A DNA stretch of 64,000 nucleotides from positions 1,674,001-1,738,000 of the forward strand of contig JAGVRJ010000001.1 in NCBI GenBank assembly GCA_019059635.1, given 5' to 3'. A model generated the notes under the pieces. It ran no database searches. It worked only from the letters and a program-made list of their open reading frames with translations, and had not been told where the DNA came from. The position numbers and the translations under genes were made by a program. The stretch is from Proales similis. Lineage: Eukaryota > Rotifera > Eurotatoria > Ploima > Proalidae. Positions 3,506 to 49,511 of the stretch are shown piece after piece (the stretch's first letter is position 1; the number at the start of each line of letters is the position of its first letter).

Positions 3506-5602
3506 ATGGAGGCGGAATTGAAAGAGAAACTGAAGCTAATATTCGACGAATATGAGCAAAAGGAGCTGTTGTCGGTAAAAATTGCCAAAAAGTCCCTGAG
3601 TCAACAGCTCGGACGTGAGCTTAGTTCGGCCGAAAACAAAGCGGTCAAAAATATCTTGATTGAAATCTACATGGCCTATCAAAGCGGCTGTGAAGCAGAG
3701 TCGGCCAGCAAGAAAAGAGAGCGAAACGACGAGAGCGACGAAGACGAGATTCGACTCGAGAACAAGGAAAACAAAAAGCAAAAGAGCTCCCAGTTCACCG
3801 AACAGGAACGAGCCGTTCTCAAGGAAATAGAGAAGACCAAAGAGAAAAACTCCAAATCGCGTCAAATAGTCAGCGACGAAGAAGAGTCGATCGAAGAGGA
3901 CTCAGTCCAGGTGAGAGAGCGCCCGAAGGAAAAGACGAAACAAATTGAACCGGACGAGGACAGTGAGAATGATGCTCAGGCAAATATGGACACCGAAGAT
4001 ACCGACGTCGATAAGGAGACAACCAAAGTAGTCGACGAGAGCAAACAGCCGTCCGAAACAGCTTCGACTGAGCAACAGCCAGCTGACAATCAGCCAAATG
4101 ATGATCAAGAGCCTGATCACAATGACGAAAAAGAAGAAACTGAAAACGAGCCAGAAAAAGCCCAGTCGGAGAATGAGGAGGCAGAAGAGAGTGCGTCGGA
4201 AGAAATAGGAGAGAAGGAGTTAAATAAAGCAAAAAAGGGAAAGGCTCGTGTTCTGGACGATTCAGAGAGTGAAAAAGAGGAAGAAGAGGAAGAAAAAGAG
4301 GTGGAAAGTAAAAAGAAGGCCAAAAAGACTGGTGGATCGAAAAAAATGGAAAAAGCGCCAGGCGAAGAAAAAAAGAGGAGAAAGAAGGCTGAGGTCAAGC
4401 CTAATAGAGAAACAAAGCAAAAGACCAAAACAGAGGAGAAGACTAAAAAGAGGCAGCCGAAAAAGAAAGCGATCATGCCCAAGCCCGAGGATCATTCAAA
4501 CGAGGAAGAGAAAATCGAGCAGGATGAAAAGAGCGAAGAAGAGCAAGACGATGTGAAAGGCAGTAGCAATCTAGCCGATTCAGACGCCAATGAGTTGGGC
4601 GAAGAAGAGAAAGAAGCGGACAAGCCTGAATCAAATGAGTCGAGCAAAAAGAAAAAGCCTGAAAGGAAATCGGAGAAGAAGAGCGGGAAAACGCCCAGGA
4701 AAAATGAAAAGAAAAAGGCAGCCAAAGTGGTAGACGATCTCAGTAAAAGAGACGATGAACAACAATCGAACGATGACCAAGAAGAAGAGCAAGAGCCAGA
4801 GGAAGCAGAAGAGAGTGCCAAGTCGAATAATGACAAAGACGATGAAAAAGAAGAAGAGGAACAAGTAAAGTCTGATGGGGAGCAGAGCGACAACCAAGTA
4901 AAGCAAAAGAAGAAGCCGAGCAAAGAGAAAGCGAAGAAAACGCCCCGAAAAGCGAAAGAAACAGAGGAAAAGAGCGGCGCAAATGAAAACATCGGCGAGG
5001 ACGTGCTGAATTTGAGCGAATTAAAAAGCTCGGACGAAGACGAGAAAGAGACAAACGACGAGGAAGGAGAGTCGAGTGGAAAGCGAAAGAAATTGAGCGC
5101 GGCCGAAGATCCCAAAATAGCGCGTCTTCGCAAATACCTTCGTCTGGCCGGCCTTCGAATAGTCAAAAACAGCGAACTAGACAGCCTGAAGAGCAAGAAG
5201 GCTCGATATGATTTCATCATGCAAATATTTCACGATGCCGGCTTCAAAGGCAACAGCTTGTCAGTAAAAGGCTGTCAGCGGTTCAAAGAGAAGCGCGAAC
5301 GAGAGAAAGAAATCGCCGAACTTGATGTGAACAACATTATCGAGGCGAGTGGCTCTGGAAGGGCCAGCAGACGGAGAGCAGCAGCAACAGCAAAGAGAAA
5401 GGTAATGATTGAAAACGACTCGTCCGAGAGTGAAGTCGAATCAGCAGTGGAGCCTAAAACTGAGCAAGCAACAAATGCCTTTTCAAACATGGCCGATCTC
5501 ATTGAAAGCGACGAGGAAGAGAAGCCAAAATCAAGGTCGGCCAAGCCGCAAAAAGTTCTCTCAGATCAAGACGATGAGGACGAAGACAAGGAACGGGAGT
5601 AG
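3506..5602 (+). CDS. HIRIP3: HIRIP3-like histone chaperone (CHZ motif)
   Basis: Single-exon ORF of 698 aa. A short helical N-terminus (about residues 1-70) is followed by a very long Lys/Glu/Asp/Ser-rich disordered region (about 75-535) and a conserved C-terminal block. That block contains a helical region (DPKIARLRKYLRLAGL) and then ELDVNNIIEASGSGRASRRR. This matches the HIRIP3 C-terminus and its CHZ motif, which binds H2A-type histones. The charged middle is long for the family and would be expected to bind basic histones or chromatin; that is inference. The extensive antisense ORFs here are shadows of GA-rich codons. The ATG at 3,506 is the first in frame. A nuclear role is likely. The C-terminal match is the main evidence. 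Confidence 0.8.
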   Translation: MEAELKEKLKLIFDEYEQKELLSVKIAKKSLSQQLGRELSSAENKAVKNILIEIYMAYQSGCEAESASKKRERNDESDEDEIRLENKENKKQKSSQFTEQERAVLKEIEKTKEKNSKSRQIVSDEEESIEEDSVQVRERPKEKTKQIEPDEDSENDAQANMDTEDTDVDKETTKVVDESKQPSETASTEQQPADNQPNDDQEPDHNDEKEETENEPEKAQSENEEAEESASEEIGEKELNKAKKGKARVLDDSESEKEEEEEEKEVESKKKAKKTGGSKKMEKAPGEEKKRRKKAEVKPNRETKQKTKTEEKTKKRQPKKKAIMPKPEDHSNEEEKIEQDEKSEEEQDDVKGSSNLADSDANELGEEEKEADKPESNESSKKKKPERKSEKKSGKTPRKNEKKKAAKVVDDLSKRDDEQQSNDDQEEEQEPEEAEESAKSNNDKDDEKEEEEQVKSDGEQSDNQVKQKKKPSKEKAKKTPRKAKETEEKSGANENIGEDVLNLSELKSSDEDEKETNDEEGESSGKRKKLSAAEDPKIARLRKYLRLAGLRIVKNSELDSLKSKKARYDFIMQIFHDAGFKGNSLSVKGCQRFKEKREREKEIAELDVNNIIEASGSGRASRRRAAATAKRKVMIENDSSESEVESAVEPKTEQATNAFSNMADLIESDEEEKPKSRSAKPQKVLSDQDDEDEDKERE

Positions 5603-6585
5603 CTTTAGCAGCTTCAAAAATTCCCAATCAATTTGCAATCGGATTTATTAGTTTCTGATTGAAAACAAACAATTGTGCCTTTTTTACGAATTGAATATGC
5701 AACCCAGTTCTTAATGAGTCAAATATGAATGTACACAAGTTGGAAGCCCCGCAGAGTAAAGTCGTTTTTTACCTAGACCAACTTGCTTCGCTTTTTTCTT
5801 TTTCCTTTAAAAATTAAAAAAATCGTCATTTTAACTAAGAAAGAACCAATCAGATTGACGAGCGATGTGTGAATAGGCAAACAACAAGCTAATGGCGTGC
5901 TGCGGCACTCAACTGTGGTTCAGGTGTGTGTGTGTGTGTGTGATGGCCACCCAGGGTTTATTCGATTTAGAGCTTTTGAAGCTTAATCAGGGCCGGGCAA
6001 AATAAAAGAAACACTCTTTGAAGTATTAAGGACTCAAAGGTGTGTATCCAAAGTTGAATATTTTTCAAAGCCGTGTGCGTGGGCCGAATTGAAGATGGTG
6101 TTGTGAGCGATAAATAGGCCGATTTAAGCTAGTCATTTGAGCCACACAGTCGACATGGCAACCAAAGCGATTTAGATAGGCGCGAGTGGGCTGGCATCAG
6201 TAAAAATAATCAGAGCGGGCAAGCACATTAGTAGTCAAGAGCTTCAAATCATAGGTAACCAGGTTGTAAAAAAGAAACGCAATATGCCATGAATATGTTG
6301 TGTGTTAGCGAAAGGATGCCATTGAAATTGAAAGAAACAGTGCGATTGAGAGGCAGTGAGAGAGAGAGAGTGGGAGTTGACGCTTTAAATAGAGTTGCGC
6401 CATTTCCACACAGATCGATTGAAAGAAGTTCGAGTCCCTGCGGGCTCTAATGCTTAAGCCCAGCACTCTTACGCAATCGGATTCATAATCGGCTCAGTGG
6501 TTTAAAACCGGCTCACTCTGCTGCTTTATTTCCATCATTACTGACCGAATTGAATTGCAAATTTAGAAACTTTGTTTGCCTAAGC
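5603..6585. other. Intergenic, HIRIP3-like to TPPP
   Basis: No coding region seen. It holds a short GT microsatellite (about 5,924-5,941) and an AG-rich tract near 6,357-6,372. The last part presumably contains the TPPP promoter and 5' UTR. Confidence 0.5.
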
Positions 6586-14070: not shown

Positions 14071-14920
14071 ATTTTCATGCGAATTAAATTATTCACTGCT
14101 GGTTCTAAAACGCGAATTATTTGTCATTCAGTTTGCTCAGCTTTTAGCCTGCAATGCATATTAATTGTCTTTGCGTGAGTGACGCCAACATCAAAATCGA
14201 TTGAAATAAGAACTGCGGCATTTCTCCCTCAAACTGACTAGAAGTTAATGCAACCAACCGTTGACTACCGTCGCTAAGTATTAAAGCTTGTTAAAACTTG
14301 ACTGAAGCTTAAGCTCGTCTTGATTACATCCGATGTTCAATCAAGTTAGGCCGGAAATTTTCAAAAGGGCTTTAAAAAAGTGTCCTATTTTCATTCCCCT
14401 TAAAACTCAAATACTGTTAATTAAGTTAAACTTGAACGATTGTTAACTAAAATTCAATTCGTCTCGCTAATTTTGCGCCTTGCCAATAGGCTACGTTATA
14501 CGATAAATGAATTAATTTCGAATTCGCTGATCCAGAAAAATCAAAAGAGAAGAAAATAAGAAAAGCAGGCGGATGTCTACGATTTTTTGTTTCAATTGAC
14601 TGAAAAAATACAAGCCAAATTGAAAATGTTGATAACCAAGCTGTATGCAGTGAACATGGCAATCGGCGGAAAGGAGGTCTGTTGGTTAATTGATTTCCAT
14701 CTTCTGACCTTGTTTCCCCGAAATTATAATAAAATCGAGTCAGAAACACAGAAAGACATTTTTCGAACCTCACGCAACTTAATAACACAAATCAAAATGA
14801 ATTCTTTGCATTCCTTTCATTTGACACGTACAATAACGTCAAAGCCAAAAATATAAACGAGATCAAGATTAAGCTTTGGCTTATTAATTTAGATTTTGAT
14901 TCATTTTGAAAAGACCGAAA
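14071..14920 (+). repeat. 5' flank of NTPase copy 1 (duplicated at 23.5 kb)
   Basis: From about 14,311 to 14,715 this sequence is almost identical to about 23,490-23,890, and its 3' part matches the minus strand near 31,880-31,720. It therefore belongs to the duplicated unit that carries the NTPase gene. A short open stretch (about 14,626-14,718) is shared by the copies but is not convincingly coding. The 240 bp nearest NADSYN1 is unremarkable. Confidence 0.75.
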
Positions 14921-17357
14921 ATGAAGTTTGTTCTCGAATACTTCAATTTGGAGGGAAAGAGAAAAGTGGTTGAATCAAACATGATGGCTCAGTTCACATC
15001 CGAACTGGTCTCGGTCTTGAACATCAAAAGTCTACAAAGGTTTGAACGCTTCAAAATACACCTGATAAGCCAAATGCTCAACAATCTCAAGGTGCCAAAT
15101 CGAAATAATACTCGATGGTCAACGGCAAGTTGTTGATTCAGCGAATAAGGAAAAAATTCTATATTTTATAGATCACACAAAAAATTCATTTAATTGCACA
15201 GTGCGTGAACTGTTGCCAACAAGGAGAAGCTCTGAAGAGTTGGATGTGCAGAGATCCTTCGACTGTCAGATCGAAACAAATCGGCAAACGAAACTGGCTG
15301 TCGGCGATTTTATGTGCGAATCCGTGCGGGAACGCCGCGAGGAAATGTCCAGACGCAGTATTTATGCCCCGTTCGCGAGTATCGTTCAGTCAAGTGGATA
15401 CGGCAAATCTCGTTCATGCTTCCTACTTTCGAGTCGCTTCTACGTGATCTATTTGTGTCTGAGAAACGAAGGATCTACTGGCTATCCTCCTCGATCGCCG
15501 CTGGCTTCATTCATTCTGAGAGCGGATGATCCGAACCACTTGTTCAAGGCGCTCTTCCTTGTCTACATAAGAGAGGTTGTGCGATTTGCCAAGGGTAACC
15601 CTGGCGAACCGGAGGATGTGAAAAGGCGTTTTTTCGCTTCAAACGATGCTTCAATGCAACTGCGAGTGCAAGAGGAGATAAGCTCCCTGCTGTCAAGCAA
15701 TGATCACGAGAAGCTAACGCAGCTGATGACTGAGACCAAGACCGACTGGGAGGAGCAAAGACCAGAAATCATATTTGTGTTTGATGAAGCTCGAGCCTTG
15801 ATTCCAGATCGGGACCAAATTAAACAAGGACTGCTCACTGATCTTCGCAGGAACGTGAAACATCTTTCGCACATGCTTTACTTTTGTCTGGTGATCGACA
15901 CAGTCTCAAAGGTGAGCAATTTCGTGCCGAGTTCAAAATCTGATCCTTCGTCTCGAGTTCGGAGTGGCTCGCGTTTGCTTCCGCCAATCTATCTGCTGCC
16001 GACATTCGACGTGTTTGTTCCCGAGTCGATCAGCAGTCTCAAAGAAGCGGTCTCACTAAGAATCAAGTGCAGCTTCGGTCGCCCGTTGTGGGGAGCCCTC
16101 TATCGAGAGATGGGAGAATGCTCGGACCTAATCGGGTTCGCGGGCGATAAATTACTTGGCGGATATACCCCGGCGAATTTCAGAGAGCTGAAAACTGAAG
16201 CCATACTAGCTGTTCTGGCTTGTAGAACAGGACTGACTGTAAACAGCTTTACAGACTCGGCCTCCGAGATGGTTGCCTCGAACATGGCCACTTGCATCTA
16301 CATCGAGCCGGAACTAGAGCTGGTGCGCATCAGCTATCCTCCAGAGCCAATGCTAGCTGAAGGATCGTTTGGACTCACCAGACAATTCCAGGATCACTTG
16401 GCCGATATGCTGAAAGCTCTGTACAACGCGATCATTCGTTCGGTAGTTATCAATCAAGGCGACAAAGGAGAGCTAGTCGCAAAGCTTACGCTGCTCATAG
16501 CGTTCGACCAAGCCTGTTTGGCCCAGCCGGGCGTGTTCAACAGCAAACCTGTGCTAGTTGCAGATTTCCTCAAAAAGCTGATAAACTTCGAAGGCAACAA
16601 GTCACTCTCTCATGCTTTGGATCGATTCGAGAGCGCCCATGTCTATTTCACTTGCTTTGCCGAGCTCGATCAGCCGCCAAGCCAAGAGATGCTGAGGCAA
16701 GCCTTGAGGAGAGGCTGCGCAATATCGATGAAACATAACTGGCCACTTGTGGACATCATCGTGCCTGTGGCTTTTAGCCTAGACGACTTTGACCGAGTCG
16801 GCTGCGTGTTGATTCAGGTGAAAAACGGCGCATCGAGTTTCGACCACTCGTTCAACTTTGATCACTTCAATCCGATGTTCTGCCACTTCAGCGATGCGGA
16901 TCCTTCGCTTCCGTTTGTCGCGTTGTTCATGGACCTAGCTCCTTCAGACAAGCATGTAGTCCGGATTGGCCCAAAATGTCTCAAAGCGGCTTCGGAGACT
17001 GGTCCGCTGAGTTCCGCAACTGAAGTTACCATCAACCCTAGCTCACTGGCCTCGCTGCTTAAGAAGGAAAAGAGTCTCGCTCATTTTCAAAAGTCGTCTC
17101 CCCGCGAGTACGAAAAGTGTATCAGCTGGACCCGGCAGATGCAGCTTCCCATTCACACTATTGGTATCATACATTCTATGCTGCCTGATAGTCAACCTGA
17201 CGTAAAGGAGGCATTGGCGCAGATTGCTAAAAGCGAGTTCATTGATCCTCAGCTCGAGCTTTTGCCCAAGGGCTCCAAGGAAGCCAAGGCCTATTCAGTG
17301 CTCAGATATGGGACCTGGCCTAGCGTGCTTCAACAGGTAAGTACAGCCTCCAAGTAA
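14921..17357 (+). CDS. Crinkler/RHS-type P-loop NTPase-nuclease, copy 1
   Basis: Two exons, 14921-15039 and 15092-17357, join in phase across a 52-nt GT-AG intron to give 794 aa. The ~76-residue header starts MKFVLEYFNLEGKRKV and continues QIEIILDGQRQVVDS. The NTPase has Walker A SSGYGKS (about residues 140-146), a GYPP motif after it (YLCLRNEGSTGYPPRSP) and Walker B IIFVFDEA (about 268-273). The C-terminal part has GELVAKLTLL (Glu about 490), VDIIVPVAF (Asp about 594) and GCVLIQVKN (Gln-Val-Lys about 615-617). These fit the E, D and (E/Q)xK core of a restriction-endonuclease fold. This order is the Crinkler-RHS architecture known from oomycetes, fungi and some animals. The role is unknown; a mobile, effector or nuclease role is inference. 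The frame ends over a CAG/GTAAGT splice-donor sequence, so another exon may exist. Confidence 0.7.
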
Positions 17358-17690
17358 ATTTAGAGTGAAGGCATTCGTCAAGCCAAGATTTAGTTGTTGG
17401 CAGAGATTTAAGCTTAAATCTCAAGTTCGATCTTTTGCGCATATTGAGAATATGCAGCAGACGATCATTTCAAATTCAGGACTGTTGCTTGAAAAAGGTT
17501 TTTTTGCTCGAGGCAAGCTTTTGCACCATAAATTTTATCCCAAGCCATTCATATCTTTTGGGTTGAAACGGTTTATTTTTGGCCTGTTTTGATTAGTTTT
17601 CAGTTGATGGTGTGAGATATGTCTTGATGATTAATTTCGAGTTTAAGTTGTCAACTGTCATTCCATGCATATGGCATTTTATAGCATGAT
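17358..17690. repeat. 3' flank of NTPase copy 1 (inverted match at 28.9-29.2 kb)
   Basis: Identical or nearly so, in reverse orientation, to about 28,842-29,174. The first ~165 bp (to about 17,524) also matches the flank of copy 2 at 26,547-26,713, where that match stops abruptly. A possible acceptor lies near 17,480 (TTTCAAATTCAG), which could pair with the donor at the end of the NTPase frame. Confidence 0.7.
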
Positions 17691-17873
17691 CATGTTTTCG
17701 GGATCTATTTTAACTCTGATGAATATTGTGTCATTGGTTATGTAGTCGAGTGAGTGAAGCACTTCAAGCTCAACGAACCGCTGCGCACCAAAAGAAGCGT
17801 TGCGCTCCCCGGTTGGTCGACCCAAGAACGGCGCATTCTCCTTGCAGGTGTTTGGCTTTATTGTGTAGCTCAC
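17691..17873 (-). pseudogene. TRAF 3'-end fragment (inverted duplicate)
   Basis: The minus strand encodes the last ~60 residues of the TRAF-like protein (YTIKPNTCKENAPFLG through IFIRVKIDPENMIML and its stop). It matches plus-strand 28,659-28,853 with very few changes, including one Glu to Lys. The match breaks exactly at 17,873, inside what is the last TRAF exon at 28,659, and ataxin-2 sequence begins two bases later. It has no upstream exons and cannot make a TRAF protein. It was carried along with NTPase copy 1. Confidence 0.85.
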
Positions 17874-19741
17874 TTGGGCACACTTGAGCGAAAGCCGACC
17901 GAAGGAATCTACCGCAACGCACGCTTCATGAACGCGGCCAACACTTTGCTCGGCTGTCCGGTGGTTCTTAAAGTAAAATCGAACGAAACCTTCCACGGCA
18001 TATTTGTGACCTTCTCGCCCGAATTCGACGTGCTGCTCGAATGCTGTCACAAACTGGACCCAGACAACGAGGTCGTCATATTCGATCGCAGTCTGCCTAA
18101 ACGCGAGAGCGTTCGCGCCCGCTACTTTGAGCGCGAGAGCATAGTCGAGCTTTACGCCTATGATGTGGATAAGGACTATGCGTTGAAGAGTCGCATGAGA
18201 TAAGCAGCGGCAGCGGGGCTCTGGACGATGATCTGAGTGGACGAGTCACGAGCACTCTGGATCTGAACGAGGGCGGCATGGACAGTGGATGGACCGCTGG
18301 GGACATGCTGCTCACCAATCAGACAAAGTACGGCTACAAGTCGACCTATAAGGAGGATTTGAGCGAATACACGGTGGCGGTCGAACGACTCGACACAGAA
18401 GAGTTCAAGCGACCCGAGCAGGAGGCCGAAAAGTTGGCGCAAGAAATCGAGTCGAGCACCACATACAAACGCAACATTGACCGAGAGCTGTCAGACGGCG
18501 AAGAAGAGGAAGAGGTGTTCTCTGCGGTCGTTCGCGGAAACGATCCTAGCCAAGGCAATTACAATGCTGCTCGCGACTACCAGACAAAAGGCGACAAAAT
18601 GCAGCGTCGATCTTTCAATGCCAAGCCAAACTATAGAGCGTCGACCAACACGCCCACTTACAAACAGCGTGGATCTCACCATCAAATGAGCAGCACAAGC
18701 GGCCCAAAGATGCCCGAAAAGTCCTATTTAAATCGACGTTCGACCGAGGGCAGTCGAGATGCGACCACTAAGCGATTTAACAATTCAGGCAAATATCAAG
18801 CACCTCATGTGGCCAATCCTCCAGTCAAAGCAGAACTTAAGCCATCGAACGCCGCTCCGACTCCATCGGTGCCCTTCTCAAGTGTAGTCTCAGGGCAAAG
18901 TGACTCTAAGCCTGCCCAGACCTATTCGGCCAAAGTGGCGCAAAACATGCGACCCATGTCTAGAGAAAGCGATCAAAGAGGCAAATCAAGCCCAGCAACA
19001 ACCGTCGCATCGACCGACAAGTCTGTCTCACCTACTGAGCCCAAAAATCAGCACGCACCCGCTCGGCCAGACTCGCGATCTGACAGCAAAGTGACTAGCC
19101 CCACGGCTACTCCTGCGAGCCAAGCACCGGCTCCTGCCGTCATTTACCAACCTGGTGCTGTACCTCTCAATCCAGCTGCCGAGTTTTATCCACCTCAACA
19201 CGTGCCCTATGCTGTTGCAGGAGCTCCTGCGCCGAATGCACCATTGATTGCGAATGCGTATGTGCCAACCTATCAAGCACCACCGTTTATTCCATACTCA
19301 GGGCCGTACACACCGCCAGTCGTACCAGTCGGCTCGGCGCCGGAGAAATCTGATCTAGCCGAAGAAATTCCTGAGAGCCAAAACGAGCCTCCCAAGCCCG
19401 AGGAGGTTGTCAACAGTGAAGAGGCCGAAAATGCGACTGAAATTCAAGGAAAGGATGGTGCCGACTGCACAGCCTTTCGTACAAGGTGGCGCAGAAAACG
19501 CCGCCGGCTATTCTGTTAATGCATCAAACGGAGTAGCGATAATGGGTCATCATCCACAGGGCCCTCAATCAAGCCAACAACAAGGGCCGCCAGGAGCTCA
19601 GTCGCAGACATCTTCTTCTCATTCACATCATAGCGCACCTCATTCTCCTTCGCCAATGTCGAACGGCGGCGCTCAACCGATGCCTTTTAACCAGGCAGGC
19701 GCGGCCCTGCCGGTTCACATGCCAGCTTACGGCTATCCTAC

Positions 19742-22632
19742 GGCATAATCAAGTTTTTGGTCAAAATGGTCATTTTCTCAATGCGCGTATTTAATAATTA
19801 AATTTAATGACTATTGAATCGTAAAAATTTATCATTTTTTTTGAGTGAGATGCAACAATTCTTGTAGCACTAGAATTCGGTTTTTATCTAAAAAAGCTTC
19901 CGGAATCTTGATCGAAAAAAATTCTTAGAACTTTTATTTGATACAATGCAACACAATGTTTGGTTTGTTTTGATTTTTTGATACAAATGCTTTGATTTCT
20001 CTCTTGGATTAAAATAAGCTATTCGCATGTTATTAAGTAATTTGCGTGAATATAAAACGAGTAACTAATTGTTTAAATACTGATTTTCTAAAAATTAAAT
20101 GAGATAGATTAAAAAATCATAAACCCAACTAACTCAAAAAATGATGACAAAAACCATAAGTCTTCAACCTATCCACGATCTATCCGAAAAAGAATCGTTC
20201 AAGAAAAGCAAGACAGAAGAAAATCTTAAGATCGTTGAGGACTTCTTCGAAATAACTTATTTCTCAAAGAGCCTTTCCCCTTTTTTTTGCACCATGTTTC
20301 AATCGGTTCTTTATCAACAGGCTTTTTTTCGACGCTCTCTTTACAACGATCGTAGAACGCTTTATATTTGGCTTGAATTCTACGGAAACTCTTTGCGACA
20401 TATTCGCTAGGCCTTAATTTAGAGTTTCTCATTAATTCGTTCTTGAAGTACCAAAATAACTTTCTTCAGGATTGTTGGTTATTCTTTCTGGAGAATGAGG
20501 CTCTGCTGATGAAATAAATATTCTTGACCAAAGTGGGCATAAATGCAAAAAGTCTTTAATGACTCCGAAAACCGTCGGGCTATGTAGAATGTTAATACCA
20601 AGATTAAACCTTTCTGTTCTTCAAAAAATCTTCAAGTTTTTTACAAGAATATATTACTTGTATTGTAAGCTTTTTGGAATGAGAGACTAAATAAATTAAT
20701 TCCAAAATGTAACAGAACTTTTCAATACTTTGACAGTCTTGTAATAATGAAAAAAAAAAACGTATTTTGTTCTTAATTGATGATCAATGTTCAATTTTTT
20801 TAATCGACGAATCCATATACGTAACAAATGAAAGGCACAAATAAATATCCTTGCGTTTGCCGCTGCGGCATATGAATACTCCTTTGATATCAAAACTTTA
20901 TAAGTTATATTGAGGTTATTATCAAGGCTACACTTGTTCATCGAGACAAGAACTGAGTTGATCAGAGCAAAAGACATATCGGTTACGACTGTTAAAGGCC
21001 AAACCGGCTTTCCAAACTTTTCTACTATATAGCAAAATTGAAGAAGATAGATACTAATTGATGAACTTGAATGAGCTGAAGTAAAGAATTCAACCAGTGG
21101 AAGAATTAATTTTTTGTCAATATCATGCATAACCATTGAATACAGAAGAGTTTGTCCAGAAATTTCTTGGTCATTCAAAATACCCCCAGTTGCGTCAAAG
21201 AAAAGAATTGGGTTTTGATGCCTCAATTCGGCCCAAATTTTGACCTGAAACATTCTTTTATAAAAAGCAATTAAGTTAATTAACCAGTCAACTACCTGAA
21301 TTTCAGAAATCAGCAAGAAACCAAAAGGATCAAGGGCTACAAACTGAATAAACCCTGGGAGAACTGCTTCGTTCAGTGTGGAATCACATATGCTTTTAAC
21401 CGCAATAATATCGTCAATCAATCTAGAATGAAGTCGTTCTCGGTGCCTGTATTCAAATTTAAGTTGGTTAAGTGTGCCTCTTTTTGGAATTACAGCTTCT
21501 ATTTGAATAGAATTTTAAATTTTATCACTTTATCCGAAAACAACAAAATACGAGATTACCCTCGTTTTGGGTCAAAATCTGCCTATTTATCGTATCTTCT
21601 AATCCTTCCGATAAAATATCCTTAGCCAATTCTTTTCTTTTCATCCCGCTTATCCTTTGAGGCATAAAAATTTTTTTTTCATGGTTTCCATTAAATAAAG
21701 GTTCCAAGAAGAGATTAACTGTGGAACCATAATCCTTTGTCCATAATTTATAACGACCGGGGCATGATTTGTCTGTGCAAAGACATTTGGCACTCCACGA
21801 AAATTTGTCAGTTGTAAGCCAATTATAAACAGGTCTGAGAAAACAAAAAATTTTCATTTTTTTCCCTAATCCATCGTGTAACTATGTTAAAAAATTCAGC
21901 TTTTAAATAGCTTCGACCGTTCTTTTTAAGTGTTGAATACTGGGAAAGGAAAGTTTCCCAATCAACAACACGAATAGCCCTAACCAGGTTTGCATCAGGA
22001 GTAATATGCAAATTTGTGAGGCAGTCTAAGACTTTACTGCGGATATGGCTTCTAAATCCGTCGCGATCTCTAGCCCACCACTGTGAAAGAAGAAGAGCTT
22101 TAACATATGATTTTTCTTGGAAAGCCAACTCGCTGATGCAACTCCATATACAATCGAGTTTCCTAGTTGCAGGAATATGGTTTTTTAGTAATAAATCCCT
22201 GCCCTTTGCTTTAAAGAGAGCAACGCTAATGGTGATAATATCTAAAAGTTCTTGTTTTTCTGCGCGGCCCATTATCTAGCAACAACAATGAAAGGTTTAT
22301 GCTTCAAAACAAGAAGAGAAATTTTTTGCTGGTGTTGCAAATGTTACTACAACAAACACAACACTCAGTGAGAGCAAGCCGGACAATATGTCTGATATGT
22401 CAGAACTGACTATACAATGTGCTGAATTGTATGAAATTAAAGTTAAACGAATATTATTCGATCAATATTCCGGAAGCTTTTTAAGATAAAAACCGAATTC
22501 TAGTGCTACAAGAATTGTTGCATCTTACTCAAAAAAAAATGATCAATTTTTATGATTCAATAGTCATTAAATTTAATAATTGAATGCGCGCATTGACAAA
22601 ATGACCATTTTGACCAAAAACTTGATTATGCC
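19742..22632 (-). mobile_element. DNA transposon with long TIRs and 9-bp target duplication (MULE-like)
   Basis: A 2,891-bp element. Both ends read GGCATAATCAAGTTTTTGG inward, and the inverted repeats extend about 170 bp (19,742-19,914 against 22,460-22,632) with few mismatches. The 9-bp direct repeat CTATCCTAC flanks it at 19,733-19,741 and 22,633-22,641. Long TIRs with a 9-bp duplication are characteristic of Mutator-like elements. It is AT-richer than the host exons around it and sits within a former ataxin-2 coding exon. One gene is present on the minus strand. The clear TIRs and perfect target duplication suggest a fairly recent insertion, later than the ataxin-2 duplication. Confidence 0.88.
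20226..22272 (-). CDS. DDE-type transposase of the TIR element
   Basis: Open minus-strand pieces at 22,272-21,823, 21,857-21,525, 21,421-20,696 and 20,432-20,226 lie in different frames but read as successive parts of one protein. The N-terminal part is helical (WSCISELAFQEKSYVKALL), followed by a Cys-containing segment (CLCTDKSCPGRYKLWTKDYG). The catalytic region has LFFDATGGI (first Asp) and LTVVTDMSFALINSVL (second Asp), with HSSSSISIYLLQF between them. A C-terminal RPSEYVAKSFRRIQAKYKAF piece resembles the end of similar invertebrate transposases. One short intron (about 21,241-21,296, GTAGTT...TTTCAG) restores the frame within the 241-aa piece, so introns may explain some breaks. I cannot say whether the gene is intact. 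Confidence 0.65.
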
Positions 22633-22994
22633 CTATCCTACTGTCATTCCGGCAGGTGCCCAGCCTAATCAAGCGGGCATTCATCCGCCATATAACATAT
22701 ACTCGGTTCCACCAGCAATTTACGGTAAGAAATTGCTGCACTTCAAATGATTAGAAAACTTTTATTCAATTTAATCAAACATTTAGCCTCGCTTCACTCA
22801 CTCAACCAGCAGGCTCAAAGCCCATATATGATCGCGCCTGCTCCGCACCAGCCGGGTAACCCATATGTCACCGGCTTACATCCACAAATGCCGCATCAAA
22901 TGCATCCGGGCCAATACCACGCACCGGGCAACTACCGATCGCAAGCGTCAGTTCAGCACTCAACTTTTACAGAAGAAATGAGGCAAAAATATTG

Positions 22995-23215
22995 ACTGAA
23001 ATTTTAGATCTTTTAATATAAACAATCAGTCAACAGTGAAAGACATTTTTCGAACCTCACACAACTAAATAGACAAAAATAGAATTTAATTCTTTGCGTT
23101 CTTTTCAATTGAAATGCACAAGCACGTCTAAGCCGAAAATATCATCGAAAATAACTTCAAGTTTTGGCTTATTAATTTAGATTTGGATCTCTTTTGAGTA
23201 CAAAAAAAAACGAAA
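22995..23215. other. Ataxin-2 B 3' flank joined to NTPase-type 5' flank
   Basis: After the ataxin-2 stop, sequence from about 23,036 (AAAGACATTTTTCGAACCTC) resembles the region just upstream of the NTPase header exon at 14,752. It is the start of a relic copy of that unit. Confidence 0.6.
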
Positions 23216-23346
23216 ATGAAATTTGTTCTGGAATACTTCAATTGTGGTGGAAAGAAAAAAGTGGTTCAATCAAATGTGATCGCTAAATTCTGCATTGAAC
23301 TGAATAACGTATTAAACAACGTAAATCTGCAAAGGTTTGAACGCTT
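23216..23346 (+). pseudogene. Stray NTPase header exon (relic fourth copy)
   Basis: Encodes MKFVLEYFNCGGKKKV and about 27 further residues homologous to header exon 1 of the three NTPase genes, but more diverged than they are from each other. It then runs to the AGGTTTGAACGC donor region and is cut off at about 23,346-23,355 by a piece of NAD synthetase. No NTPase body follows before copy 2. It is a truncated older paralogue. Confidence 0.75.
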
Positions 23347-23355
23347 GCCGCCCCG

Positions 23356-23475
23356 CTTCACCAGAACATCGACTCGTTAAGTTAAAGAAATCTCTCAGAC
23401 GGGCTTTTTAAATAAAACCTTGGCGGTAGCACTCTTAATCAAATTTACTCGTCGATCGGCTTTCCTCAACTGATG
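23356..23475 (-). pseudogene. 119-bp NAD synthetase fragment
   Basis: Nearly identical to about 12,999-13,117 in the NADSYN1 gene (one base change seen, CTTTATC to CTTAATC). It spans an exon/intron boundary, so it arose by DNA copying and not from mRNA. It carries no function on its own and sits exactly between the stray header exon and the start of the duplicated flank of NTPase copy 2. Confidence 0.85.
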
Positions 23476-23488
23476 CTCGTCTTGGTTA

Positions 23489-24104
23489 AGATCGTCTTGA
23501 TTACATCCGATGTTCAATCAAGTTAGGCCGGAAATTTTCAAAAGGGCTTTAAAAAAGTGTCCTATTTTCATTCCCCTTAAAACTCAAATACTGTTAATTA
23601 AGTTAAACTTGAACGATTGTTAACTAAAATTCAATTCGTCTCGCTAATTTTGCGCCTTGCCAATAGGCTACGTTATACGATAAATGAATTAATTTCGAAT
23701 TCGCTGATCCAGAAAAATCAAAAGAGAAGAAAATAAGAAAAGCAGGCGGATGTCTACGATTTTTTGTTTCAATTGACTGAAAAAATACAAGCCAAATTGA
23801 AAATGTTGATAACCAAGCTGTATGCAGTGAACATGGCAATCGGCGGAAAGGAGGTCTGTTGGTTAATTGATTTCCATCTTCTGACCTTGTTTCCCCGTAA
23901 TCCTAATTAAATCGGATCAGAAACACAGAAAGACATTATGCGAACCTCACGCAACTTAATAACACAAATCAAAATGAATTCTTTGCATTCCTTTCATTTG
24001 ACATGTACAAAAACCTCAAAGCCAAAAATATTAACAAGAACAAGATCAGGCTTTGGCTTATCAAAATTAGATTTGGATCCCTTTTGGCTTTGAAAACAAC
24101 CAAA
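23489..24104 (+). repeat. 5' flank of NTPase copy 2
   Basis: Matches 14,311-14,920 (direct). The match is close up to about 23,893 and looser afterwards. A small local repeat (CTCGTCTTGG then ATCGTCTTGA) marks its left border at about 23,475-23,500. In this copy and copy 3 the frame is open upstream of the header ATG to an earlier ATG (24,003 here, MYKNLKAKNINKNK...). In copy 1 that extension is stopped. Confidence 0.7.
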
Positions 24105-26546
24105 ATGAAGTTTGTTCTCGAATACTTCAATTCCGAGGGAAAGAGAAAAGTGGTTGAATCAAACATGATGGTTGAGTTCGGAATGGAACTAAATTCCGTT
24201 TTGAAGAACGGCAATCTACAAGGGTTTGAACGCTAAAAATACATAAAAAATTGTAAGGCTTAAATAAATCAGACCTAAAGGTATAAAATCGAAATAATAC
24301 TCGATGGAAACCGGCAAGCAGTTGATTCGGAAAATATAAAAATAATTGCTGGTTTAATAGAGGAAACGAAAAAATCATTTCATTGCACAGTGCGTGAACT
24401 GTTGCCAACAAGGAGAAGCTCTGAAGAGTTGGATGTGCAGAGATCCTTCGACTGTCAGATCGAAATAAATCGGCAAACGAAACTGGATGTCGGCGATTTT
24501 ATGTGCGAATCCGTGCGGGAACGCCGCGAGGAAATGTCCAGACGGAGTATTTATGCCCCGTTCGCGAGTATCGTTCAGTCAAGTGGATACGGCAAATCTC
24601 GTTCATGCTTCCTACTTTCGAGTCGCTTCTACGTGATCTATTTGTGTCTGAGAAACGAAGGATCTACCGGCTATCCTCCTCGATCGCCGCTGGCTTCATT
24701 CATTCTGAGAGCGGATGATCCGAACCACTTGTTCAAGGCGCTCTTCCTTGTCTACATAAGAGAGGTTGTGCGATTTGCCAAGGGTAACCCTGGTGAACCG
24801 GAGGATGTGAAAAGGCGTTTTTTCGCTTCAAACGATGCTTCAATGCAACTGCGAGTGCAAGAGGAGATAAGCTCCCTGCTGTCAAGCAATGAGCACGAGA
24901 AGCTAACGCAGCTGATGACTGAGACCAAGACCGACTGGGAGGAGCAAAGACCAGAAATCATATTTGTGTTTGATGAAGCTCGAGCCTTGATTCCAGATCG
25001 GGACCAAATTAAACAAGGACTGCTCACTGATCTTCGCAGGAACGTGAAACATCTTTCGCACATGCTTTACTTTTGTCTGGTGATCGACACAGTCTCAAAG
25101 GTGAGCAATTTCGTGCCGAGTTCAAAATCTGATCCTTCGTCTCGAGTTCGGAGTGGCTCGCGTTTGCTTCCGCCAATCTATCTGCTGCCGACATTCGACG
25201 TGTTTGTTCCCGAGTCGATCAGCAGTCTCAAAGAAGCGGTCTCACTAAGAATCAAGTGCAGCTTCGGTCGCCCGTTGTGGGGAGCCCTCTATCGAGAGAT
25301 GGGAGAATGCTCGGACCTAATCGGGTTCGCGGGCGATAAATTACTTGGCGGATATACCCCGGCGAATTTCAGAGAGCTGAAAACTGAAGCCATACTAGCT
25401 GTTCTGGCTTGTAGAACAGGACTGACTGTAAACAGCTTTACAGACTCGGCCTCCGAGATGGTTGCCTCGAACATGGCCACTTGCATCTACATCGAGCCGG
25501 AACTAGAGCTGGTGCGCATCAGCTATCCTCCAGAGCCAATGCTAGCTGAAGGATCGTTTGGACTCACCAGACAATTCAAGGATCACTTGGCCGATATGCT
25601 GAAAACTCTCTATAACGCGATCATTCGTTCGGTAGTTATCAATCAAGGCGACAAAGGAGAGCTAGTCGCAAAGCTTACGCTGCTCATAGCGTTCGACCAA
25701 GCCTGTTTGGCCCAGCCGGGCGTGTTCAACAGCAAACCTGTGCTAGTTGCAGATTTCCTCAAAAAGCTGATAAACTTCGAAGGCAACAAGTCACTCTCTC
25801 ATGCTTTGGATCGATTCGAGAGCGCCCATGTCTATTTCACTTGCTTTGCCGAGCTCGATCAGCCGCCAAGCCAAGAGATGCTGAGGCAAGCCTTGAGGAG
25901 AGGCTGCGCAATATCGATGAAACATAACTGGCCACTTGTGGACATCATCGTGCCTGTGGCTTTTAGCCTAGACGACTTTGACCGAGTCGGCTGCGTGTTG
26001 ATTCAGGTGAAAAACGGCGCATCGAGTTTCGACCACTCGTTCAACTTTGATCACTTCAATCCGATGTTCTGCCACTTCAGCGATGCGGATCCTTCGCTTC
26101 CGTTTGTCGCGTTGTTCATGGACCTAGCTCCTTCAGACAAGCATGTAGTCCGGATTGGCCCAAAATGTCTCAAAGCGGCTTCGGAGACTGGTCCGCTGAG
26201 TTCCGCAACTGAAGTTACCATCAACCCTAGCTCACTGGCCTCGCTGCTTAAGAAGGAAAAGAGTCTCGCTCATTTTCAAAAGTCGTCTCCCCGCGAGTAC
26301 GAAAAGTGTATCAGCTGGACCCGGCAGATGCAGCTTCCCATTCACACTATTGGTATCATACATTCTATGCTGCCTGATAGTCAACCTGACGTAAAGGAGG
26401 CATTGGCGCAGATCGCTAAAAGCGAGTTCATTGATCCTCAGCTCGAGCTTTTGCCCAAGGGCTCCAAGGAAGCCAAGGCCTATTCAGTGCTCAGATATGG
26501 GACCTGGCCTAGCGTGCTTCAACAGGTAAGTACAGCCTCCAAGTAA
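24105..26546 (+). CDS. Crinkler/RHS-type P-loop NTPase-nuclease, copy 2
   Basis: Exons 24105-24223 and 24281-26546 join in phase 2 across a 57-nt intron to give 794 aa, the same exon lengths as the other two copies. The header differs most (MMVEFGMELNSVLKNG..., then YKIEIILDGNRQAVDS). The NTPase and nuclease-like body is almost identical to copy 1, with scattered replacements such as NDHEK to NEHEK, FQDHL to FKDHL and KALYN to KTLYN. Walker A, Walker B and the GELVAKL, VDIIVP and IQVKN motifs are all kept. An in-frame ATG at 24,003 could add 34 residues. The frame again ends over CAG/GTAAGT. The 3' flank matches copies 1 and 3 only to 26,713, and the TRAF-like gene begins about 400 bp later on the same strand. 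Confidence 0.7.
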
Positions 26547-27108
26547 ATTTAGAGTGAAGGCATTCGTCAAGCCAAGATTTAGTTGTTGGCAGAGATTTAA
26601 GCTTAAATCTCAAGTTCGATCTTTTGCGCATATTGAGAATATGCAGCAGACGATCATTTCAAATTCAGGACTGTTGCTTGAAAAAGGTTTTTTTGCTCGA
26701 GGCAAGCTTTTGCAAGCGCATGATAAATTTTCTTCACACAGTTAAATTATTTTTTTTTGGAGTCATTAAATAAAGTTTGCTTGAAATTTATTTGGTTTTC
26801 GAGCCCTTCAACGAACGACGATTTGCCAATCTTAGCTGTCTTGATTTTGCCACGCTTCATGTTTTTCCGTAGGTTGGGCCAAGAATCGATCGATTTTCTT
26901 GTTTATTTCTGTCAAACATATAAAAACTAGTTGAGCAAGTCTCGAGCAAACAATTTGCTTATTTTTAATAATTGACGACGACAGCAACAGCCAAGGCGAT
27001 AAATTTCTGCGACAGACGCAACAAGAATCGATTTAATTCAGTCATAAGTTCGTAAGTCAAATTATTGATTAAAGACTCCATTTTGTTTGGCGCATACTTC
27101 TTGGCAAA
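26547..27108. other. Interval between NTPase copy 2 and TRAF-like gene
   Basis: The first ~167 bp is shared with the other NTPase copies. The rest is unique and includes an AATAAA near 26,768 that could end NTPase transcripts. The remainder probably serves as TRAF promoter and 5' UTR. Confidence 0.5.
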
Positions 27109-28853
27109 ATGAGTGTGGCCACCCGAAACGCAATTGATTCATCAATGTCCATTCCTGTTTACGACGGCTCGATGGTGTCCATACGCAGCAACTCGCGTAT
27201 TCAGACCGCTGCTATTAATGGAGTCCGCTATCGTAGCGCCGTTCCTGTCGCGGGAAATAGGTTTGAACTGCTTGAGAGGGAAGAGTTCGTCTTTTAACTT
27301 TGCAACTGTCAAAAAAATTTCTACTAGGGCCGCATACGAGGTTCGATGGAAGTCAGGAAAGCTGGACAAAAAGTTCGAGTGTCCGTACTGCAAAACACAC
27401 TTCAAGTTCCCGGTGCAATTTCAAGACTGTAGACATCGAGTCTGCTCTTCTTGCTTCAGTGACATACTCAAGTAGTTTTAAGAGAAAGTTCTCCCTATTG
27501 ACTTTACTAAGAATAAGTTAAACATTTTTAGAGAGTCTGCCTCGTGCCCTGTGTGTGAGAAAGCCTTATCGAGAGACCGTGTCTTTCTCGATAACGAGTT
27601 CCAGAAAGAAATTCAGAACATCCAAGTCTACTGCAGCAATAGCTTAAGTGGATGCAAATGGGAGGGCATGTTCAAAATGCTTACCGTAAGAATAGTCTCA
27701 ATTCAATGAATATCTGATTTCAAAGTTCAAAAACTTAAACAAAAGATGCACATTGAAGAATGCGAATATACGATGGTTGACTGCCTCCGCGGCTGCGGTA
27801 TGCAGTATCAACGCCGATTGGAGAAGAAGCATTTTGTCGACGAGTGTTTGAAAAACGAGACTCTGTGCGAATTTTGCCGAGCGAAAATCGCCAAAGCCGA
27901 CGAAGTCGATCATTTAAGTCAGTGCCCCAAGTTCGTGGTGCCTTGTCCGAGCGATTGCGGTGCTCGGGATATGCGACGGGAAGAGGTTCAAAATCACTTG
28001 GATAACGAGTGCCCGAAATATGAAACTCATTGTCCATTCTCCGACTCGGGCTGTACTTTCCGAGCGCTGCGATCTGAAATGCCTCAACACTTGAAAGAGT
28101 CACCCGGTCTACACTTGAACATGATGTGCAAGACAATCAGCCTCCAAAAGAAACAACTGCAGATTTTGAGCGAGATAGTCGACAAGCAGAAAGACATGTT
28201 GGCCGAGGTCGGAGGCAAAGTCGGATCGATGGAAAAGTACTATGGTTCTCAGCTAATTTGGAAGATTGACCACTTTGCTGTGAGTGTCTTCACAATTCTT
28301 CTAATCATTATCGAATGAAATTTTTTACACTACGAAATTCAGGAAAAGTTTAACGAGTCTAAAACTGGAAAGAAAGCAACCATCTTTTCACCGCCGTTCT
28401 TGACCAGTCGTCACGGCTACAAGCTTGCTTTATCGGCCGCCTTGTACGGCGATGGAAAAGGTAGGCGATTGATCAAAGATTATTTCTCCTTTAAGCGAAG
28501 GCGATTTCAAAACGAAACAAACAGCCAAGGGAAAGTTCATGTCTCTCTTCATATGCATTTGCAAAGGCGAATATGACTCGTTACTTTCGTGGCCTTTCAA
28601 CCACAAAGTAACGTTCACCCTACTGGATCAGTGCGAGAATGTCGAGGCACGCAGACACGTGAGCTACACAATAAAGCCAAACACCTGCAAGGAGAATGCG
28701 CCGTTCTTGGGTCGACCAACCGGGGAGCGCAACGCTTCTTTTGGTGCGCAGCGGTTCGTTGAGCTTGAAGTGCTTCACTCACTCGACTACATAACCAATG
28801 ACACAATATTCATCAGAGTTGAAATAGATCCCGAAAACATGATCATGCTATAA
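27109..28853 (+). CDS. TRAF-like E3/adaptor (RING, TRAF zinc fingers, MATH)
   Basis: Signalling adaptor of the TNF-receptor-associated-factor family. Six exons join in phase: 27109-27260, 27328-27471, 27532-27685, 27746-28279, 28343-28460 and 28525-28853, giving 476 aa. The RING finger spans exons 2-3 (FECPYCKTHF, DCRHRVCSSC, SCPVC). Cys/His-rich TRAF-type zinc fingers follow (HIEECEYTMVDCLRGCG, HLSQCPKFVVPCPSDCG, HLDNECPKYETHCPFSDSGC), then a short coiled coil (LQKKQLQILSEIVDKQKDML) and a C-terminal MATH/TRAF-C domain. TRAF6- or TRAF3/5-like family members fit; I cannot choose. It sits between NTPase copies 2 and 3, which form inverted arms, and its last exon is partly duplicated at 17.7 kb. 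Confidence 0.9.
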
Positions 28854-29174
28854 AATGCCATATGCATGGAATGACAGTTGACAACTTAAACTCGAAATTA
28901 ATCATCAAGACATGTCTCACACCATCAACTGAAAACTAATCAAAACAGGCCAAAAATAAACCGTTTCAACCCAAAAGATATAAATGGCTTGGGATAAAAT
29001 TTATGGTGCAAAAGCTTGCCTCGAGCAAAAAAACCTTTTTCAAGCAACAGTCCTGAATTTGAAATGATCGTCTGCTGCATATTCTCAATATGCGCAAAAG
29101 ATCGAACTTGAGATTTAAGCTTAAATCTCTGCCAACAACTAAATCTTGGCTTGACGAATGCCTTCACTCTAAAT
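28854..29174. repeat. Convergent interval TRAF / NTPase copy 3
   Basis: Tail-to-tail spacer that is repeated in inverted orientation at 17,358-17,690. It contains the possible NTPase 3' acceptor, near 29,051 on the minus strand. Confidence 0.6.
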
Positions 29175-31611
29175 TTACTTGGAGGCTGTACTTACCTGTT
29201 GAAGCACGCTAGGCCAGGTCCCATATCTGAGCACTGAATAGGCCTTGGCTTCCTTGGAGCCCTTGGGCAAAAGCTCGAGCTGAGGATCAATGAACTCGCT
29301 TTTAGCAATCTGCGCCAATGCCTCCTTTACGTCAGGTTGACTATCAGGCAGCATAGAATGTATGATACCAATAGTGTGAATGGGAAGCTGCATCTGCCGG
29401 GTCCAGCTGATGCACTTTTCATACTCGCGGGGAGACGACTTTTGAAAATGAGCGAGACTCTTTTCCTTCTTAAGCAGCGAGGCCAGTGAGCTAGGGTTGA
29501 TGGTAACTTCAGTTGCGGAACTCAGCGGACCAGTCTCCGAAGCCGCTTTGAGACATTTTGGGCCAATCCGGACTACATGCTTGTCTGAAGGAGCTAGGTC
29601 CATGAACAACGCGACAAACGGAAGCGAAGGATCCGCATCGCTGAAGTGGCAGAACATCGGATTGAAGTGATCAAAGTTGAACGAGTGGTCGAAACTCGAT
29701 GCGCCGTTTTTCACCTGAATCAACACGCAGCCGACTCGGTCAAAGTCGTCTAGGCTAAAAGCCACAGGCACGATGATGTCCACAAGTGGCCAGTTATGTT
29801 TCATCGATATTGCGCAGCCTCTCCTCAAGGCTTGCCTCAGCATCTCTTGGCTTGGCGGCTGATCGAGCTCGGCAAAGCAAGTGAAATAGACATGGGCGCT
29901 CTCGAATCGATCCAAAGCATGAGAGAGTGACTTGTTGCCTTCGAAGTTTATCAGCTTTTTGAGGAAATCTGCAACTAGCACAGGTTTGCTGTTGAACACG
30001 CCCGGCTGGGCCAAACAGGCTTGGTCGAACGCTATGAGCAGCGTAAGCTTTGCGACTAGCTCTCCTTTGTCGCCTTGATTGATAACTACCGAACGAATGA
30101 TCGCGTTATAGAGAGTTTTCAGCATATCGGCCAAGTGATCCTTGAATTGTCTGGTGAGTCCAAACGATCCTTCAGCTAGCATTGGCTCTGGAGGATAGCT
30201 GATGCGCACCAGCTCTAGTTCCGGCTCGATGTAGATGCAAGTGGCCATGTTCGAGGCAACCATCTCGGAGGCCGAGTCTGTAAAGCTGTTTACAGTCAGT
30301 CCTGTTCTACAAGCCAGAACAGCTAGTATGGCTTCAGTTTTCAGCTCTCTGAAATTCGCCGGGGTATATCCGCCAAGTAATTTATCGCCCGCGAACCCGA
30401 TTAGGTCCGAGCATTCTCCCATCTCTCGATAGAGGGCTCCCCACAACGGGCGACCGAAGCTGCACTTGATTCTTAGTGAGACCGCTTCTTTGAGACTGCT
30501 GATCGACTCGGGAACAAACACGTCGAATGTCGGCAGCAGATAGATTGGCGGAAGCAAACGCGAGCCACTCCGAACTCGAGACGAAGGATCAGATTTTGAA
30601 CTCGGCACGAAATTGCTCACCTTTGAGACTGTGTCGATCACCAGACAAAAGTAAAGCATGTGCGAAAGATGTTTCACGTTCCTGCGAAGATCAGTGAGCA
30701 GTCCTTGTTTAATTTGGTCCCGATCTGGAATCAAGGCTCGAGCTTCATCAAACACAAATATGATTTCTGGTCTTTGCTCCTCCCAGTCGGTCTTGGTCTC
30801 AGTCATCAGCTGCGTTAGCTTCTCGTGCTCATTGCTTGACAGCAGGGAGCTTATCTCCTCTTGCACTCGCAGTTGCATTGAAGCATCGTTTGAAGCGAAA
30901 AAACGCCTTTTCACATCCTCCGGTTCGCCAGGGTTACCCTTGGCAAATCGCACAACCTCTCTTATGTAGACAAGGAAGAGCGCCTTGAACAAGTGGTTCG
31001 GATCATCCGCTCTCAGAATGAATGAAGCCAGCGGCGATCGAGGAGGATAGCCAGTAGATCCTTCGTTTCTCAGACACAAATAGATCACGTAGAAGCGACT
31101 CGAAAGTAGGAAGCATGAACGAGATTTGCCGTATCCACTTGACTGAACGATACTCGCGAACGGGGCATAAATACTCCGTCTGGACATTTCCTCGCGGCGT
31201 TCCCGCACGGATTCGCACATAAAATCGCCGACATCCAGTTTTGTTTGCCGATTTGTTTCGATCTGACAGTCGAAGGATCTCTGCACATCCAAATCTTCAG
31301 AAGCACTACGTGTTGGCAAATGTTCACGCACAGTGCAATGAAATGAATTTTTTGTGTGAATTATTAAATAAAGAATTTTTTCCTTATTCGCTGAATCAAA
31401 AACTTGCCGTTGACCATCGAGTATTATTTCGATTTGGCACCTTGAGATTGTTGAGCATTTGGCTTATCAGGTGTATTTTGAAGCGTTCAAACCTTTGTAG
31501 ACTTTTGATGTTCAAGACGGAGACGAGTTCGGATGTGAACTGAGCCATCATATTTGATTCAACCACTTTTCTCTTTCCCTCGGAATTGAAGTATTCGAGA
31601 ACAAACTTCAT
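29175..31611 (-). CDS. Crinkler/RHS-type P-loop NTPase-nuclease, copy 3
   Basis: Exon 1 is 31611-31493, the intron is 52 nt and exon 2 is 31440-29175, giving 794 aa with the architecture described for copy 1. The header is closest to copy 1 (MMAQFTSELVSVLNIKSLQ, same intron). The body shares the copy 2 variants NEHEK, FKDHL and KTLYN. Near residues 77-90 it has its own version (VREHLPTRSASEDLDV). This mosaic pattern suggests gene conversion among copies. All NTPase and nuclease-like motifs are intact. An upstream in-frame ATG at 31,713 (MYKNVKAKNINKNK) would add 34 residues. It is convergent with the TRAF-like gene. Confidence 0.7.

Positions 31612-46767: not shown

Positions 46768-49511
<2,744 letters not shown>

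Follow-up and report, generated by a model that had tools for sequence, protein, structure and literature searches.

We analysed a window of 64,000 nucleotides (nt) from the rotifer Proales similis (assembly GCA_019059635.1, contig JAGVRJ010000001.1, positions 1,674,001 to 1,738,000 of the forward strand), in which an initial annotation had recognised three near-identical copies of a Crinkler/RHS-type nucleoside triphosphatase (NTPase)-nuclease gene. The three genes, here called copies A, B and C, indeed follow one plan: exons of 119 and 2266 nt encode a protein of 794 amino acids (aa), and the introns measure 52, 57 and 52 nt, respectively (Table 1). A count of three is right for the window but incomplete for the cluster. 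A fourth copy, D, with the same exon lengths and a 52-nt intron, lies ~2–4 kb left of the window on the same contig (G000:C1:1669953-1672106; hereafter contig C1). Another copy has left a 5′ remnant just before B; the stretch 22961-23347 that contains it matches the 5′ end of D at 95.9% identity and A at 76.6%.

Table 1 Family genes and gene parts in the window
Feature	Position in window	Strand	Description
Copy A, exon 1	14921..15039	+	119 nt; start of N-terminal header; intron position and phase common to paralogue L005
Copy A, exon 2	15092..17357	+	2266 nt; remaining header, P-loop part, nuclease-like part
Copy A, variable header block	14984..15197	+	Codons 22-75, intron inside
Copy B, exon 1	24105..24223	+	119 nt; header strongly unlike A and C
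Copy B, exon 2	24281..26546	+	2266 nt
Copy C, whole gene	29175..31611	-	Begins at 31611 and ends at 29175; exons 119 and 2266 nt, intron 52 nt
5′ remnant of further copy	23011..23346	+	Part of exon 1 with the sequence upstream of it; just before B

The splice structure of A–D is predicted from sequence. The calls are supported by the paralogue L005, which is 47% identical to copy A and has a 51-nt intron at the matching position and phase after a first exon of 122 nt, and by the intron of B, which differs in length by 5 nt. A GTAAGT immediately before the stop codon (17337 in A) makes an alternative 3′ end possible. We considered a third exon downstream of it and kept the two-exon reading because aligned paralogues terminate at approximately the same place.

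The protein probably comprises three parts: a header (approximately residues 1–90), a P-loop NTPase and a C-terminal part with nuclease-like motifs. The motifs listed in the initial annotation are present in the copies; in copy A, Walker A stands at residue 140, Walker B at 267, QGDKGEL at 495, DIIVP at 594 and QVKN at 615. We aligned ten family members, two of them partial and the rows 32–95% identical to the first. Walker A, SSG(Y/F)GK(S/T), and FDEAR are near-invariant across this alignment, and a C-terminal E (in QGxKxEL), D (in the DxIxP region) and K (in (Q/E/D)xKN) are invariant in all ten rows. We take the order E, D, (Q/E)xK to be that of the PD-(D/E)xK nuclease motif. P-loop motifs followed by a nuclease-like set, as first proposed, recur across the family: Walker A, Walker B and E...D...(Q/E)xK are all kept in 13/13 open-frame members.

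Differences among the C1 copies are concentrated in the header. Over 2385 nt, A and B differ at 60 sites, A and C at 31, and B and C at 64, and the 162 sites of codons 22–75 hold 47, 8 and 46 of these, respectively (Fisher p for the excess, 3e-46, 8e-4 and 4e-42). In the same codons D differs from A at 46 sites, from B at 49 and from C at 48, again in excess (p from 5e-26 to 2e-24). The description 'near-identical' therefore fits the body, where codons 116–794 of A, B and C are ~99.6–99.8% identical, and fails for codons 22–75, which hold most of the A/B and B/C differences. An identity profile computed in steps of 75 alignment columns, in A coordinates, follows the same outline. A, B and C are 95–100% identical from ~15254 to 17500, whereas in the header steps A/B and B/C fall to 68–75% and A/C spans 85–100%. 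D is 64–72% identical to the others in these steps, except where the step contains the intron (A/D and C/D 88%, B/D 65%). The step spanning the start codon is 77–100% identical among copies, and steps upstream of it 75–97%, save for the outermost step with D (41–50%).

Synonymous and nonsynonymous differences in codons 116–794 number 6/3 for A/B, 5/3 for A/C and 5/0 for B/C. The A/D comparison is richer, with 35.8 synonymous and 32.2 nonsynonymous changes over ~471 synonymous (S) and ~1566 nonsynonymous (N) sites, giving a nonsynonymous rate (dN) of 0.021, a synonymous rate (dS) of 0.080 and a dN/dS of ~0.26. Purifying selection thus acts on the body. The simplest account of the C1 mosaic would be gene conversion of the body that leaves out the header.

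We searched the 32.7-Mb genome (15 contigs), where match counts are lower bounds, and obtained at least 23 matches with copy A as query and at least 22 with a copy from contig C5, the two sets overlapping. Thirteen members have an uninterrupted reading frame through both the P-loop part and the nuclease-like part and carry all eight scored motifs: four on C1, four on C4, three on C5 and one each on C6 and C13. Several copies are near-identical, and the recent amplification first described is supported. The 5′ ends are resolved for A–D and L005; any start codon in the copies on C4, C5 and C13 is provisional, and some of them have stops upstream. Broken or partial members comprise the C10 copies, L012 on C7, three 5′ pieces on C6 and smaller fragments on C7, C8 and C4. 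In L012 (G000:C7:1987111-1988484), a 459-aa frame joins the header directly to the C-terminal part, and the P-loop part is absent. On C6 (G000:C6:157001-186000, L032-L034), tandem 6.26-kb units that are >99% identical run up to a single full copy, and each unit includes a family gene of which only the truncated 5′ end is present.

We interpret these genes as encoding a probably intracellular, NTPase-nuclease-like conflict protein that, in the C1 cluster, pairs a divergent header with a homogenised body, a reading that we think stands about an even chance of being correct. Most likely the header would recognise or target something, NTP binding or hydrolysis would license the protein, and the C-terminal part would cut or nick nucleic acid, presumably inside the cell. 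The likely setting is some form of conflict, for example defence against viruses or mobile DNA, or rivalry between genomes. The copies arose by duplication within larger blocks, and in C1 recombination between them would keep the NTPase-nuclease body uniform and leave the header divergent. A front end that differs between copies of a putative energy-driven DNA- or RNA-cutting protein could fit conflict genes. A bolder version, which we regard as unlikely, casts the family as an animal-specific NTP-gated nuclease in which a cutting body kept uniform by recombination is joined to a diversifying, intron-split recognition header, a variable receptor on a constant effector in genome defence or conflict.

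Several results weigh against the conflict-protein interpretation. The Pfam search proposed with the initial annotation returned nothing at E <=1 for the 794 aa of copy A, PDB searches gave no match at E 10, and curated family searches named no part of the protein. Unrelated families (DUF1690, E 0.011; dCache_2, 0.036; DUF6908, 0.099) score as well as ATPase ones, which favour the interpretation but are themselves marginal: over ten members the best AAA match is AAA_22 (E 0.017, in L005, across the Walker region), and the NCBIfam AAA family ATPase model matches two (best E 0.037). PADLOC models are likewise marginal, both the ATPase-type match to mad8 around Walker B (E 2.7e-4 in L009, 0.0035 in L011) and the unrelated DEDDh on the C-terminal tail (E 0.0046), as are all matches to PHROGs. 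AlphaFold2 models of single sequences reached a mean predicted local distance difference test (pLDDT) score of only 34.5 and 42.4, too low for use because the runs lacked an alignment; Foldseek with the pLDDT-42.4 model found no match at E <=0.001, a result that so poor a model deprives of meaning.

The header data also temper this interpretation. Codons 22–75 of the five divergent pairs of A–D have a dN of 0.29–0.34 and a dS of 0.41–0.75, so that dN/dS is ~0.4–0.8, below 1 with dS also high. Divergence of header exon relative to intron is borderline (A/D p 0.07, C/D p 0.047, A/C p 0.20; B excluded). We considered diversifying selection on the header and, because of these two results, do not claim it. 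Nor is the combination of variable header and uniform body general, since one C4 copy reverses it and the C5 headers barely differ. The C4 copies are again mosaic: L014, L016 and L017 are 100% identical in the header and 5′ flank, whereas by body and 3′ flank L016 and L017 fall together with L015. L014 thus shares its header with L016 and L017 and differs from them in the body (dS 0.12–0.13), the reverse of C1; L015 is divergent from the same two in the header (23/231 nt) and closer in the body. The C5 copies, compared in their headers alone, show only 3, 3 and 6 differences over 216 nt.

One alternative keeps the NTPase and gives the C-terminal part another role, for example as a nucleic-acid- or protein-binding domain. 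The restriction-endonuclease (REase)-like part drew no fold support from the low-confidence model and its Foldseek search, and its motifs were read by eye against REase patterns. The invariance of E, D and K in 10/10 aligned members speaks for a nuclease, however, and we judge a non-nuclease C-terminus to be unlikely.

A secreted Crinkler-type effector, delivered into another organism by its header, seems to us distinctly improbable. The architecture does resemble the header, NTPase and REase plan of Crinkler-RHS-type (CR) proteins, whose headers, according to a review, are held to serve delivery (PMC5289972), and header variation in C1 could suit an arms race. However, no hydrophobic stretch is present at the N-terminus: over the first 35 residues of A–D, the highest 10-residue mean of hydropathy is 0.79–1.0. 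This speaks against a classical signal peptide, although the CR class may do without one according to the same review (PMC5289972).

Mobility, which the initial annotation had also raised, is not supported because the copies lie inside duplicated blocks together with neighbouring sequence. C is the inverted counterpart of A (14655-17876 versus 31884-28656, 97.8% identity), B matches A over 14309-17525 (96.5%), and 596-2277 and 17876-19457 are an inverted duplicate of an ataxin-2-like region (98.1–99.7% identical); a segmental duplication, larger and in inverted orientation, encloses the NTPase-nuclease copies. On C4, each of the four copies belongs to a 4279-nt tandem unit that also carries a neighbour frame of 201–207 aa, and on C5 three flanking frames are common to L009 and L010, one of them also present at L011. 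A mobile-element protein, or a domesticated remnant of one, that spreads the gene would explain several clusters on different contigs and would recall the tie between the CR class and transposable elements described in the review (PMC5289972). Yet the flanks and neighbour frames common to copies on C4 and C5, the inverted blocks of C1, and the lack of visible terminal repeats or target duplications where A, B and C end (by eye, ~25–30 bases per edge) leave this explanation very little probability. A toxin-antidote or other selfish element, with the body as toxin and the header as self-recognition, would suit clustered copies that combine a copy-specific header with a common body in C1, but no partner gene was identified, although no systematic search was made, and we hold this reading to be highly doubtful.

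The genome yields 45 matches to the nuclear-receptor zinc finger and 43 to innexins, many of them exon pieces. Both families are animal ones, and the host is therefore an animal, as first annotated. The tomato russet mite was considered as host and rejected: pantoate ligase, reported for that mite (PMC7738191), was not detected here, in a search that registered in 9/14 controls. Models of arthropod cuticle (PF00379) and nematode cuticle collagen (PF01484) had no match, their controls being silent too, and the 16 matches to PAN_4 (PF14295) do not discriminate between hosts. The window yielded no Rfam family and no tRNA. It includes two head-to-head actin genes without interruption in their frames (46768-47898 and 48381-49511); the best PDB match of one is a C. 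elegans actin, closely followed by vertebrate and fly actins, which is equally uninformative about the host. A 698-aa open frame (3506-5602) has no Pfam match at E 0.001 and lies in a stretch whose strand is strongly biased to purines (AT skew 0.446 and GC skew 0.205 at 4001-6000). A 2.9-kb DNA transposon, presumably a Mutator-like element (MULE), occupies 19742-22632, within or just past a copy of the ataxin-2-like gene (LsmAD match 18278-19519). Its inverted ends read GGCATAATC..., its target duplication is 9 bases long (CTATCCTAC), and its empty site is visible in the duplicate stretch left of the window. Its minus-strand open frames have no Pfam match and appear transposase-like by eye.

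Comparison with known systems leaves the interpretation in the initial annotation partly supported. At the level of motifs the family is Crinkler-like: the order of header, P-loop NTPase and nuclease-motif C-terminus, and the expansion into a family, resemble CR proteins of oomycetes, fungi, trypanosomes and others, as described in the review (PMC5289972). Membership in the Crinkler/RHS class is not established, because the tested header model fails to match and the fold models are unusable, and neither Pfam nor PDB offered a match. Unlike CR proteins, these copies match neither the Pfam Crinkler header (PF20147) nor the retrotransposon hot spot protein family (RHSP, PF07999), which the review links to the CR class (PMC5289972). 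PF20147 reaches two places only, both elsewhere in the genome and below threshold, and was silent in 14/14 control genomes; its failure excludes that header model alone because the review describes further header types that are unrelated (PMC5289972). One of the two places (G000:C10:1131651-1131773, E 0.004) lies in a 365-aa frame outside the family matches. PF07999 has no match in the genome and was equally silent in 14/14 control genomes, so absence is not proven.

Outside the CR class, the bacterial defence model mad8 shows a marginal likeness around Walker B in 2/10 members, spanning ~70 residues only in L009 and L011 and absent from copy A. Phage records (tblastn), viral contigs and prokaryote genomes yielded no relatives, the viral and prokaryote scans being seeded on short conserved patterns with tblastn at E 1e-3, a design that detects fairly close relatives. 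The host itself sets the family apart from the CR proteins of oomycetes, fungi and trypanosomes, being an animal, and one with a very small genome; among the titles and openings of abstracts listed in literature searches, none concerned an animal Crinkler family. If these genes do encode a Crinkler-like NTPase-nuclease, they place such a conflict protein in an animal, where it forms an amplified family and is under selection. Copies that share a contig provide a natural test of header function. The C1 cluster would also have the opposite polarity to the oomycete proteins: as described in the review (PMC5289972), those keep a conserved N-terminus and diversify the C-terminus, whereas here a variable front is joined to a constant back.

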